Assembly: GCA_947630755.1 (NCBI GenBank)
Contig: CANRIU010000009.1
Coordinates: 1 to 62,301 of the forward strand
Direction: 5' to 3'
Length of the DNA: 62,301 nucleotides
DNA from: an uncultured Oscillospiraceae bacterium
Lineage (GTDB): Bacteria; Bacillota; Clostridia; Oscillospirales; Oscillospiraceae
Below, piece by piece: positions 24,081 through 41,383 of the stretch. Both the position numbers and the translations under genes were made by a program. Position 1 is the stretch's first letter. The number at the start of each line of letters is the position of its first letter. The notes beneath the pieces were generated by a model. That model saw only the letters and a list, made by a program, of their open reading frames with translations, was not told the origin of the DNA and ran no database searches.

Positions 24081-24152
24081 TCGGCGGCATGTGCGTCGGA
24101 AAAAATCCGCACGTCCCCCTTGGCATCGAAAGCCCACCGGACTTTCGAGCCA
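24081..24152 (-). repeat. Structured repeat family, shortened copy
   Basis: On the minus strand: a head hairpin with TCGAAAG/CTTTCGA arms (24121-24152), then GGGGGACGTGCGG, then TTTTTTCCGACG and the core CGACGCACATGCCGCCG. It has the order of blocks found in the 31885-32088 element but lacks the central stem-loop. Confidence 0.7.
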
Positions 24153-31511: not shown

Positions 31512-31540
31512 TTGCAATCGGCTGTGACTTATGATAACAT
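31512..31540 (+). promoter_or_regulatory. secG promoter
   Basis: TTGCAA (31512-31517), 17-nt spacer, TAACAT (31535-31540), about 50 nt before the start. Confidence 0.7.
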
Positions 31541-31589
31541 AAAAGTCCGGCAATTAAAAGACCATACTTTATATAAAGGATTGATTATT

Positions 31590-31835
31590 TTGCAGACATT
31601 AACCATTATCATCACCGTAATTCAGCTCATCTCCTGCGTCGCCCTTGTCACCATCGTTCTCTTCCAGTCCGGCAAGAGCTCCGGTCTCTCCGGCGCCATC
31701 GGCGGCGGCAGCGGCGATACTTTCCTCTCTAAAAACAAGTCCAAGAGCCTTGACGCACGTCTGGCCCGGTTCACGAAGTGGGTCGCCGGCGTGTTCATGC
31801 TGCTGACCCTTGTCCTCAATTTCATCATCAAGTAA
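31590..31835 (+). CDS. secG: Preprotein translocase subunit SecG
   Basis: 81 residues with two membrane helices separated by the conserved loop SGKSSGLSGAIGGG. The start is TTG at 31590 with AAAGGA 9 nt upstream. It is alone here; the usual rnr and smpB neighbours are absent. Confidence 0.93.
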   Translation: MQTLTIIITVIQLISCVALVTIVLFQSGKSSGLSGAIGGGSGDTFLSKNKSKSLDARLARFTKWVAGVFMLLTLVLNFIIK

Positions 31836-31851
31836 TTATCCTTAATAAGTC

Positions 31852-31883
31852 AAAACCCCGGAGGCCGTGGCCTCCGGGGTTTT
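31852..31883. terminator. secG terminator (copy 1 of a duplicated terminator)
   Basis: A perfect 15-bp stem: AAAACCCCGGAGGCC with GGCCTCCGGGGTTTT. The same hairpin is repeated at 32089-32120 on the other side of the inserted repeat element. Confidence 0.9.
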
Positions 31884-31884
31884 A

Positions 31885-32088
31885 GCCTGTCGAAAAAGCC
31901 CTTCGGGCTTTTTCGACAATGGGGACGTGCGGGGAATCCCGCGTGAATTTTGCGAAATTCACGCGAAATTCCCCTGCTGCCGCCCTGCGCGCACGGCCCA
32001 AGGGCCGCGCACTTGGGCGACAAAAAGGGATTTTTTCCGACGCGCATGTCGCCGGAAAAAATATTGAATTTGAGTTTTTGACAAGCTG
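31885..32088. repeat. Structured repeat element, full copy A
   Basis: 204 bp of non-coding DNA folding into consecutive hairpins: head (31888-31901 with 31905-31918, perfect 14 bp), GGGGACGTGCGG box, long stem-loop (GGGGAAT...ATTCCCC around CGCGTGAATTT with its complement), a GGCCC/GGGCC hairpin, and a tail TTTTTTCCGACG...CGCCGGAAAAAA holding the core CGACGCGCATGTCGCCG. Ends GCCTGTCGAAAA and (complement) GCTTGTCAAAA are inverted repeats. Bracketed by a 32-bp direct terminator duplication. Confidence 0.75.
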
Positions 32089-32120
32089 AAACCCCGGAGG
32101 CCGTGGCCTTCGGGGTTTTA
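32089..32120. terminator. hpf-side terminator (copy 2 of duplicated terminator)
   Basis: Identical to 31853-31884 except for one C-to-T change at 32110. It lies 12 nt after the hpf stop on the minus strand. Confidence 0.85.
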
Positions 32121-33733: not shown

Positions 33734-34579
33734 ATGTCACGAGAGCTTTTACGGCATGAGCTCATCGAGCGGAGCATCATAAAAAAATACAGGAAGGAGC
33801 TCTGGAACCCCTTCACCTACGCGGTGAACAAATACGAGCTCATAAAGCCCGGGGACAAAATCGCGGTGTGCATCTCCGGGGGGAAGGACTCCATGCTTCT
33901 GGCGAAGCTCATGCAGGAGCTGTGCCGCCACTCGGCATACCCCTTTGAGGTGGAGTACATCGCCATGGACCCGGGGTACAGCGCCGAGAACAGAAGGCGC
34001 CTTGAGGAGAACATCGATATTCTCAGGCTCCCCGTGCACATATTTGAGAGCGACATCTTCGCCGCGGCGGACTCCGCCGCGAAAAGCCCCTGCTACCTGT
34101 GCGCCCGGATGCGCCGTGGGGCGCTCTACGCCGAGGCGCAAAGGCTGGGCTGCGGGAAAATTGCCCTGGGGCACCACTTCAACGATGTCATTGAGACGAC
34201 CCTTATGGCGCTTTTGTACGGGGCGCAGCTCCAGGGGATGATGCCGAAGCTCCACAGCACAAACTTTCCGGGCATGGAGCTCATCCGCCCGCTGTACTGC
34301 GTCCACGAGGAGGACATCAGCGCCTGGGCGCGGTATAACGGCCTTACCTTCCTGCGCTGCGCCTGCCGCCTCACCGAGGGGACCGAGACGGGGGAGCTCG
34401 TCTCCAAGCGCCGGGAGACGAAGGAGCTCATAGCGCGCTTAAAGCTTGAAAGCCCCAATGTGGAGAAGTCCATCTTCAACGCCATCCACGAGGTGAGTCT
34501 TGACACCTTCCCCGCATACAAGACCCGCGGGGTGGAGCACTGGTTTCTGGAGGACTACGACCAGCGGGGAAATAAATAA
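33734..34579 (+). CDS. TtcA/TilS-type PP-loop ATPase, probable tRNA thiolase
   Basis: 281 residues. PP-loop SGGKDS (48-53), CxxC pair Cys120/Cys123 (CYLCARMRR) and a further CAC (209-211), as in TtcA-type proteins that thiolate cytidine 32 of tRNA using an Fe-S cluster. The motif GHHFNDVIETTLMALLYG is typical. Length and features are right for TtcA, but related TtuA/Ctu1-like enzymes cannot be fully excluded. Divergent from the fumarase gene. Confidence 0.85.
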   Translation: MSRELLRHELIERSIIKKYRKELWNPFTYAVNKYELIKPGDKIAVCISGGKDSMLLAKLMQELCRHSAYPFEVEYIAMDPGYSAENRRRLEENIDILRLPVHIFESDIFAAADSAAKSPCYLCARMRRGALYAEAQRLGCGKIALGHHFNDVIETTLMALLYGAQLQGMMPKLHSTNFPGMELIRPLYCVHEEDISAWARYNGLTFLRCACRLTEGTETGELVSKRRETKELIARLKLESPNVEKSIFNAIHEVSLDTFPAYKTRGVEHWFLEDYDQRGNK

Positions 34580-34598: not shown

Positions 34599-34621
34599 GC
34601 GGACAGGCGCTGCCTGTCCGT
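34599..34621. terminator. ttcA-side terminator (copy 1 of a duplicated terminator)
   Basis: CGGACAGGC, loop GCT, GCCTGTCCG, preceded by an A run but followed by TCAAGCC with no T run. The identical 23-mer recurs at 34803-34825. Confidence 0.8.
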
Positions 34622-34802
34622 CAAGCCGTCGACAAAGGCTTTGCCTTTGCCGACGGAAGAAATTTGCCGGTCCCCTCCATGCACTTCGTACACTCCGGGG
34701 ACCTAAAATGGGCAAATTTCGACGTACATGCCGCCGAAATTTGCATTGAATTTTTTTCGCGCCTGCGGGCGCGAAATTCTGCGAAGCTTTGTCAACAGTC
34801 TG
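34622..34802. repeat. Structured repeat element, full copy B
   Basis: 181 bp of nested hairpins: head CCGTCGACAAAGGC/GCCTTTGCCGACGG (34626-34656), a large stem GAAATTTGCC...GGCAAATTTC enclosing GGTCCCC/GGGGACC, the core CGACGTACATGCCGCCG between AAATTT arms, and a CGCGCC/GGCGCG hairpin. Its ends are inverted repeats around GTYGACAAAG. Flanked by an identical 23-bp direct repeat of the terminator hairpin. Confidence 0.75.
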
Positions 34803-34828
34803 GCGGACAGGCGCTGCCTGTCCGTTTT
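34803..34828. terminator. Terminator copy 2, with T run
   Basis: Same hairpin as 34599-34621, here followed by TTTTAG but without the A run on its left: the two copies look like halves of one split terminator. Confidence 0.8.
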
Positions 34829-34855
34829 AGACTGTTGAAAAAGGCTTTTCAGACT
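34829..34855. repeat. Structured repeat family, small hairpin
   Basis: AGACTGTTGAAAAAGGC with TTTTCAGACT, a reduced head hairpin directly before the metY stop on the other strand; it may act as the metY terminator. Confidence 0.5.
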
Positions 34856-34857
34856 TT

Positions 34858-36141
34858 TTATATTTTATCCAGCGCCTGGGCGATGTCGGCGATAAGGTCT
34901 GCGGAGTCCTCAAGGCCGCAGCTCATGCGCACCAGGTCCGGGGTTATCCCGGCGGCGACAAGCTCCGCGTCGTTCATCTGGCGGTGGGTGGCCGAGGCCG
35001 GGTGGAGGCAGCAGGTCCGGGCGTCGGCGACGTGGGTCTCTATCGCGCCGAGCTTTAGGTGCCTCATAAACTCCTCCGCGGCGGGCCGTCCCCCGGTGAA
35101 GCCGAAGCTCACCACTCCGCAGGTGCCGTTCGGCATGTACTTCATCGCGAGCTCATGGTACTTGTCCCCCTCAAGGCCCGGATAAATGACAAAGCTTATT
35201 TTCGGGTGGCTCTTGAGGAACCGGGCCACGGCAAGGCCGTTCTCGCAGTGGCGGGGCATACGGACGTGGAGGCTCTCCAGCCCCAGATTCAGGATAAAGG
35301 CGTTCTGGGGGGACTGGATGGAGCCGAAGTCCCGCATGAGCTGTGCCGTGCACTTGGTTATGAACGCCCCGCCCAGGCCGAACTTTTTGGCGTAGGTGAC
35401 GCCGTGGTAGCTGTCGTCGGGGGTGGTGAGGCCGGGGAACTTGTCCGCGTGGGCAAGCCAGTCGAATCTGCCGGAGTCCACGATGGCCCCGCCCACTCCG
35501 GCGCCGTGGCCGTCCATGTACTTTGTGGTGGAGTGGGTGACGATGTCCGCGCCCCACTCAAAGGGCCGGCAGTTTACCGGGGTGGCGAAGGTGTTGTCCA
35601 CAATGAGGGGCACGCCGTGGTCGTGGGCGGCCTTCGCGAATTTCTCTATGTCCAGCACGGTGAGGGCGGGGTTTGCGATAGTCTCGCCGAAAACGGCCTT
35701 TGTGTTGGGGCGGAAGGCGGCGTCAAGCTCCTCGGGGGTGCAGTCCGGGGAGACGAAGGTGAACTCCACGCCCATCCTGCGCATCGTCACATGGAAGAGG
35801 TTGTAGGTCCCGCCGTAAATGGTGGAGCTGGCGACCACATGGTCCCCGGCGGCGGCTATGTTGAACACGGCAAAGAAGTTTGCCGCCTGACCGGAGCTGG
35901 TAAGCATGGCCGCCGTGCCCCCCTCAAGGGCCGCGATCTTCGCCGCAACATGGTCGTTGGTGGGGTTCTGGAGGCGGGTGTAGAAGTACCCGGACTCCTC
36001 CAGGTCAAAGAGCCTGCCCATGTGCTCGCTGGTGTCATATTTAAATGTAGTGGACTGGATTATGGGTATCTGCCGGGGCTCGCCGTTTCCGGGGGTGTAG
36101 CCCGCCTGTACGCATTTTGTGCCGATGCCCTGTTCGCTCAT
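34858..36141 (-). CDS. metY: O-acetylhomoserine sulfhydrylase
   Basis: 427 residues, Cys/Met-metabolism PLP enzyme. It makes homocysteine from O-acetylhomoserine and sulfide. The PLP lysine is in THSTTKYMDGHG (about residue 206), and the long internal loop of MetY (FGLGGAFITKCTAQLMRDFG) separates it from MetB. No SAM or T-box leader is seen; it starts 38 nt from argS. Confidence 0.94.
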   Translation of the reverse strand: MSEQGIGTKCVQAGYTPGNGEPRQIPIIQSTTFKYDTSEHMGRLFDLEESGYFYTRLQNPTNDHVAAKIAALEGGTAAMLTSSGQAANFFAVFNIAAAGDHVVASSTIYGGTYNLFHVTMRRMGVEFTFVSPDCTPEELDAAFRPNTKAVFGETIANPALTVLDIEKFAKAAHDHGVPLIVDNTFATPVNCRPFEWGADIVTHSTTKYMDGHGAGVGGAIVDSGRFDWLAHADKFPGLTTPDDSYHGVTYAKKFGLGGAFITKCTAQLMRDFGSIQSPQNAFILNLGLESLHVRMPRHCENGLAVARFLKSHPKISFVIYPGLEGDKYHELAMKYMPNGTCGVVSFGFTGGRPAAEEFMRHLKLGAIETHVADARTCCLHPASATHRQMNDAELVAAGITPDLVRMSCGLEDSADLIADIAQALDKI

Positions 36142-41308: not shown

Positions 41309-41337
41309 CGTCGACAAAGGCGCAGCCTTTGTCGACG
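41309..41337. repeat. Structured repeat family, head hairpin
   Basis: Perfect 13-bp stem CGTCGACAAAGGC/GCCTTTGTCGACG, followed by GGATCGAAATATCCGGTCC, which aligns with the start of full copy B (34626 onward). Confidence 0.7.
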
Positions 41338-41344
41338 GATCGAA

Positions 41345-41383
41345 ATATCCGGTCCTCCATTGGGGAGGGCCGGGTATTTTTTT
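41345..41383 (+). terminator. Terminator after the XpaC-like gene
   Basis: ATATCCGGTCCTCC pairs with GGAGGGCCGGGTAT (G-U pairs allowed), then a run of T. Confidence 0.85.

Follow-up and report, generated by a model that had tools for sequence, protein, structure and literature searches.

The window analyzed here is a stretch of 62,301 nucleotides from an uncultured Oscillospiraceae bacterium, corresponding to contig 9 of an assembly of 2.19 Mb in 98 contigs that is 89% complete. Two convergent genes from its list of open reading frames frame the locus of interest: a ttcA-like gene on the plus strand (33734 to 34579), matches to which were present in 39 of the 40 genomes searched (its own included), and a metY-like gene on the minus strand (34858 to 36141). 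Both names were taken from the initial annotation of this DNA. Beginning 19 nt after the ttcA stop codon, the putative terminator hairpin GCGGACAGGCGCTGCCTGTCCGT occupies positions 34599 to 34621, and it recurs at 34803 to 34825. The initial annotation had described an identical 23-bp direct repeat flanking 181 bp between the two genes, with the A run kept on the left copy and the T run on the right copy, and both observations were borne out. The two copies were 100% identical; the left is preceded by AAAAAA and followed by CAAGCC, while the right is preceded by CAGTCTG and followed, after its own last T, by TTTAGAC. With its last base omitted, the repeat occurred twice in the whole window when up to three mismatches were allowed, and this pattern was absent from all 100 shuffles of the window.

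The 181-bp insert (34622 to 34802, plus strand) has the properties of a MITE: it is short, lacks a transposase gene, has terminal inverted repeats and is multicopy, with parts of it aligning to other places in the genome at 74 to 100% identity. It starts with CAAGCCGTCGACAAAG and finishes with CTTTGTCAACAGTCTG, and its ends matched the terminal consensus at 15 of 15 letters on each side, with the flanking repeat matching at 23 of 23. The left terminal repeat (34622 to 34656, plus strand) was seen by eye to fold with its own inverted copy (CAAGCCGTCGACAAAGGC TTT GCCTTTGCCGACGG), and inverted-repeat analysis placed the right terminal repeat at 34787 to 34802 on the minus strand. Between them, a hairpin at 34712 to 34744 (inverted repeat I4) carries the core of the family, CGACGTACATGCCGCCG, at 34720 to 34736. 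The inverted-repeat ends and the duplication were by themselves the grounds on which readings of the insert as a REP, an attC-like site or an IS200/IS605 element were dropped. A search of this region against Rfam gave no match at the gathering threshold, and the subthreshold matches to isrL (23.8 of 35 bits) and BSnc120 (25.6 of 114 bits) were taken as chance.

The core had been reported to be shared with an element at 31885, and CGACGYRCATGYCGCCG was indeed found in both. That first element is a MITE of 204 bp (31885 to 32088, plus strand), and it is flanked by a 32-nt hairpin repeat with one mismatch, the left copy (AAACCCCGGAGGCCGTGGCCTCCGGGGTTTTA) lying at 31853 to 31884 and the right copy at 32089 to 32120. 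The left copy follows an open reading frame (31512 to 31835) which we take to be secG-like. Both cases cited in the initial annotation are therefore real and share a core, but they are two among many, since 44 exact copies of the core were counted in this genome. Two more partial copies of the family were seen in the window, a core at 24082 to 24098 and an element end at 41309 to 41360. Just beyond the right hairpin of the 181-bp element, positions 34829 to 34855 (AGACTGTTGAAAAAGGCTTTTCAGACT) resemble a leftover element end, as if the terminator had been struck earlier; a comparable stretch (GTCTGTCGAA) lies after the right hairpin at L212, an insertion sequence (IS) locus in a genus relative.

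Across the genus the core was found in 21 of 34 genomes, and the pattern read backwards was found neither there nor in the source genome. Two flavours of MITE were distinguished by eye: flavour A, to which the element at 31885 belongs, has the core within TTTTTTCCG...CGGAAAAAA, and flavour B, that of the window element, has it within GCAAAAT.../...ATTTTGC. The flanks were analyzed at 83 core-bearing sites comprising 43 of the 44 exact-core sites of the source genome, 20 of 55 in G019 and 20 of 44 in G015. Element ends were picked from the sequence of each element regardless of any repeat, and candidate ends were obtained at 66 of the 83 sites at a loose threshold (at least 11 of 15 letters) under which some are probably false. 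A repeat abutting the ends (score of at least 10) was present at 24 of the 66 sites, and 23 of the 24 were hairpins, the exception being an 11-nt repeat at L172. When the left flank of one locus was instead compared with the right flank of another, none of 910 pairs had an abutting repeat. The 23 hairpin-duplicated copies measure 164 to 280 bp and have inverted-repeat ends.

Per site with ends, hairpin duplication was found at 15 of 36 in the source genome, 7 of 19 in G019 and 1 of 11 in G015; no such duplication reached the threshold at the remaining 43 sites, to which G015 contributed 10 of its 11. Weaker repeats, such as those at L068, L179 and L183, fell under this threshold and were uncounted, and hairpin repeats at L021, L027 and L061, visible in other comparisons, were missed by the end-anchored count because the chosen ends differ. 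The expectation that copies of the family lie beside duplicated terminators thus held for a part of them, namely 15 of 43 core-bearing sites in the source genome, 7 of 20 in G019 and 1 of 20 in G015, the remainder having decayed or undetectable ends. An earlier search for repeats not anchored to the ends had given a score of at least 16 at 28 of the 83 sites, compared with 3 of 300 control pairs; the end-anchored count superseded its tally of palindromic repeats (8 to 0), for which the repeat had to be centred.

Several further observations were made on these sites. A plus-strand open reading frame appears to end 33 to 76 nt before the element at 11 of the 15 hairpin sites of the source genome, by a heuristic that gave many spurious frames at a distance of 0 to 2. 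At some loci the two hairpin copies have equal stems and reverse-complement loops (L019 and L291 by script; L027, L002 and L179 by eye), for example CTCC/GGAG, AGAT/ATCT and, at L179, TAAACG/CGTTTA; among hairpin pairs with at least two differences, 2 of 9 were exact inversions by script. Among the G015 copies L186 to L205, found by searching for the core, those without recognisable ends retain the core and near-perfect stems of differing sequence, which may point to a function, or to a process correcting palindromes, that is independent of mobility.

A candidate autonomous partner was present in the source assembly, which contains a single IS1182-family match (NF033551, 436 bits against a cut-off of 270). 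Its product also scored above cut-off for PF13751 and PF05598, as for an IS1182-type DDE transposase. The ends of this IS (CAGTCTGTCGACAAAC / CAGACTGTAGACAAAC) match those of the MITEs, and the 25-nt hairpin AAGCCCTTGCCGACGGCAAGGGCTT stands in identical copies on either side of it. The termini and target behaviour of the window MITE are the same as those of the IS, placing it with the IS1182 family. Of the 21 genomes of the genus that carry the core, 13 had a match to the transposase and 8 had none, and three genomes had a match without the core; many MITE copies may therefore be fossils or be served by another enzyme. A search with the transposase in named genomes returned 12 loci, 10 of them in uncultured Oscillospiraceae MAGs. 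Among the 12 IS loci first surveyed, clean hairpin duplication was found only in the genus relatives L212 and L213; the exact hairpin repeats seen, in more distant relatives in G001 and G013, measure 31 and 23 nt. A partial case, L207/L154 (one locus), has an imperfect 37-nt repeat extending past the hairpin, and the remaining loci of this survey, in which the search window ended within the reading frame of the source-genome IS, gave no hairpin repeat.

The comparison was extended to 398 genomes of the phylum, from which 30 IS1182 loci (24 complete, 6 incomplete) were returned, and a hairpin was duplicated foot to foot at 10 of the 30. Another 40 copies from the same search list, 12 of them drawn from genomes already showing duplication, gave 15 with a hairpin duplication. 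Three relatives of the first survey were added to the set, and L212 and L213 were included because they already showed the duplication. The pooled set held 27 of 73 loci with hairpin duplication, 7 incomplete and 39 without it by rule, which is not an unbiased rate because part of the loci were picked for showing the repeat. Palindromic targets, as reported for some IS1182 members (PMC5678879), were found at the source-genome IS and at other loci. Among the 39, L207 has a long repeat (37 nt, the sole other long repeat at complete IS loci), L240 has a one-sided hairpin, and L247 has two different hairpins by eye.

A tree of the transposases (56 rows; quick method, LG+G4, SH-aLRT support, no bootstrap), built after removal of identical proteins, those shorter than 400 aa and L257, for which no protein was read, and subject to a program warning of long branches, grouped 19 hairpin-duplicating rows (L207 labelled by hand) with 3 truncated rows and 1 without duplication (L247) in a clade with an SH-aLRT support of 99. 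L265 and L277 formed a second, small duplicating lineage, and a separate clade of 18 rows comprised 17 without duplication and 1 truncated. We compared the borders of multi-copy families lacking the duplication, leaving out G198 and L281, and found by eye that the left end carries its own inverted repeat in 6 of the 8 with drawable borders, for example AAAGAGGCTGTC...GACAGCCTCTTT. This is as expected if these elements replace the inverted repeat of their target. It also gives some footing to the reading, raised in the initial annotation, that the flanking hairpins are part of the element, which would then bring its own terminator on each side, as is the case for some members of other IS1182 lineages. 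At the duplicating loci, however, the ends are alike across loci but the hairpins beside them are not, and together with the empty plasmid site described below this makes element-owned hairpins a highly implausible explanation.

On named plasmids, hairpin duplication was found at 6 of 10 IS1182 loci, those of Acetoanaerobium noterae, Peribacillus R9-11 pB, Sutcliffiella horikoshii, Cetobacterium somerae, Cytobacillus firmus and Lactococcus UCCL626. At further named loci it was found in 2 of 3, both in Enterococcus and one annotated ISEfa7, bringing the records examined to 13 among the 60 matches listed. The third of these, in Thermocaproicibacter melissae and readable on its left side only, abuts a hairpin and begins with CAGCCTGTCGAAAAAG, like MITE flavour A.

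Empty sites were then sought for four of the plasmid loci, and among the matches listed only the Lactococcus locus gave any. In pUCCL626B the IS lies between two convergent genes with the hairpin AAAGAACCTCTTGGTTCTTT on both sides, the copies being exact. In pUC77B the site is empty and holds a single hairpin, and the joined flanks of pUCCL626B match it over 100 of 100 nt; pNZ4000, pG324 and pUCCL632D have empty sites matching at 99 of 100 nt each. Four of the five Lactococcus matches examined were thus empty sites, and the fifth carries a different insert. In L320 (Lactococcus pIBB109_AgSa_5), a different insert of ~0.7 kb occupies this terminator hairpin; its edges bear a 10-nt repeat, ACCTCTTGGT, and by eye it appears to be a second element using the same target. 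The search for empty sites yielded an exact one for a relative of the element in Lactococcus. At the ttcA-metY locus itself, where the initial annotation had proposed such a comparison, it yielded none: metY was absent from the 1.2 to 1.5 kb examined after ttcA at all 29 loci from relatives. In the Lactococcus case the hairpin exists without the element, which refutes its belonging to the element there.

The same pair bears on a two-step origin, in which the element replaces or opens the hairpin in the manner of IS1272 and gains its second hairpin copy only afterwards, through gene conversion or recombination between copies. The lineages without duplication are compatible with such a sequence of events, as is L247, whose two sides look as if the flanks had been swapped. 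Against it, the pUCCL626B copies are exact and their flanks agree with the empty site throughout, and the two copies had no difference at all in 25 of the 27 IS duplications; we regard this origin as unlikely.

The geometry of the duplications was examined in 56 repeats (23 MITE, 27 IS and 6 plasmid IS), in which, as for the hairpin label throughout, a hairpin was required by definition. The duplications are 17 to 38 nt long, the centre of the repeat lay within 1 nt of the centre of the hairpin in 51 of the 56, and repeat length followed hairpin span with r = 0.906 in this hairpin-selected set. Outside the left copy, A accounted for 2.95 of 5 letters and outside the right copy T accounted for 2.82 of 5, compared with 0.50 T and 0.80 A at the positions immediately within the element. 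That every counted repeat falls within 17 to 38 nt might suggest an ordinary IS with a fixed long stagger and a preference for the A/T-rich edges of terminators, the hairpins being duplicated through proximity. Such a stagger fits poorly with centres that mostly agree to within 1 nt and a length that tracks the hairpin, in a set selected for hairpins, and with the predominance of hairpins (23 of 24) among the MITE repeats found, and we consider it very unlikely.

Taken together, it is very probable that the window feature is a MITE with IS1182-family ends which inserted at a bidirectional intrinsic terminator, the whole hairpin becoming the target site duplication. The proposal in the initial annotation that one bidirectional terminator was duplicated on insertion is thus supported by the end-anchored repeats, the flanks of the source-genome IS, the IS loci of other genomes and the Lactococcus empty site. 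In the genomes compared, hairpins specific to each locus and duplicated from foot to foot border the elements with IS1182 ends as well as the autonomous IS1182 elements. The duplication varies in length with the hairpin, and in the Lactococcus plasmids the corresponding empty site holds a single hairpin.

We suggest that the transposase recognises an extruded cruciform and that strand transfer would join both element ends to the 5' feet of its two hairpins. Because the feet of the hairpins meet at the four-way junction, points of attack 17 to 38 nt apart on the DNA would lie adjacent, and gap filling would then copy the entire hairpin. Recognition of the folded hairpin is suggested by the foot-to-foot repeats in combination with the lack of a shared target sequence. 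Attack at the 5' feet of a cruciform would be the simplest geometry and corresponds to pathway b of a published model (PMC5678879); the trace would be no different for a transposase that simply binds linear DNA at inverted repeats. Given the sequence and what is generally known of intrinsic terminators, each convergent gene would retain a full hairpin and T run in the copy farther from it, the right one for ttcA and, on the opposite strand, the left one for metY. The insertion should thus be close to neutral for both, in contrast to that of IS1272, which removes the hairpin.

The interior of flavour A was examined for conserved folding in an alignment of 41 copies hand-picked from 62 extracted stretches (7 short, 4 long and 10 others being left out). 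Because only stretches with the core, an ACGTGCG motif and a T-rich arm were extracted, the constancy of these parts is partly built in; the variable stems were not required. Three stems vary widely yet stay paired, with 96.8% of 1,775 cells paired versus 80.1% after shuffling, 316 cells changed on both sides versus 94.9, and a covariation of 0.446 versus 0.141, counts for which the structure was derived from the same alignment. Further pair types showed no excess (60 versus 58.0 shuffled). The first stem, followed in 55 copies, has 49 distinct left arms, and 988 of its 1,040 cells were Watson-Crick, the others being 26 A.C, 10 G.T (strand read) and 16 of other types. The preponderance of A.C over G.T mismatches speaks against an RNA of the strand read as the object of selection and points to folded DNA or an RNA from the other strand; it may also reflect correction of one arm by the other. 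Three flavour-A copies (L134, L144 and L200) carry an extra palindromic insert of ~60 nt inside the second hairpin. A joint reading, in which IS1182 transposases read DNA shape and the flavour-A interior is a selected folded module, is offered tentatively, as we hold it to be somewhat less probable than its negation. On the shape-reading side, one large clade would attack the 5' feet of a cruciform and double the hairpin, with neighbouring lineages giving no duplication; if true, a change in the polarity of attack could switch between sparing and destroying the host terminator.

The system would offer a natural example of a DDE transposase that takes the extent of its target duplication from a DNA structure and not from a constant stagger, and a plasmid of a food bacterium supplies an exact before/after pair. 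It also suggests a route by which a repeat family could reach tens of copies per genome at gene ends with terminators spared, and structure-reading integration could serve as a tool for placing DNA at terminators.

Among known systems, prokaryotic MITEs are described as short elements with inverted-repeat ends, thought to be IS derived (PMC10969869). The window element has the same build, and in the available text of that source none is described with a whole terminator hairpin as its duplication. REPs tagged with GTAG/CGTC are palindromic repeats of 20 to 40 bp with an unpaired tag, located mostly downstream of genes (PMC3733652); the window element is likewise rich in palindromic repeats but, at 181 bp, exceeds this size. 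Within the IS1182 family, ISPse1 has been reported with a 4-bp duplication (PMC3281130), which counts against our main explanation. ISBma2-type transposases were noted behind 5' terminators (PMC2965389), and ISCbo5 was located at gene-end hairpins that probably stop transcription, with a "surrounding hairpin" (PMC3098183). The gene-end position is shared with our elements, and in the available text of PMC3098183 the hairpin is not called a target duplication. No demonstration of a whole terminator hairpin as a target duplication was found in the portions of the literature searched, with ISfinder and supplementary tables outside that search. The closest parallels are IS1272 and TnSha1, IS1182-family elements whose target is an inverted repeat of no fixed sequence, often a terminator hairpin, and which delete or replace it and leave no duplication (PMC5678879, PMC4923244). 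From the available parts of these sources, it is already known that IS1182-family elements strike terminator hairpins and that IS1272 deletes them; duplication of a whole stem-loop is a drawn possibility, given in the legend of the 2017 model figure as pathway b, with IS1272 taking pathway a (PMC5678879). That drawn, unproven pathway now becomes directly testable. The elements described here thus have the hairpin target in common with IS1272 and TnSha1, whereas the outcome differs: the hairpin is deleted or replaced there, and here it is retained and doubled.
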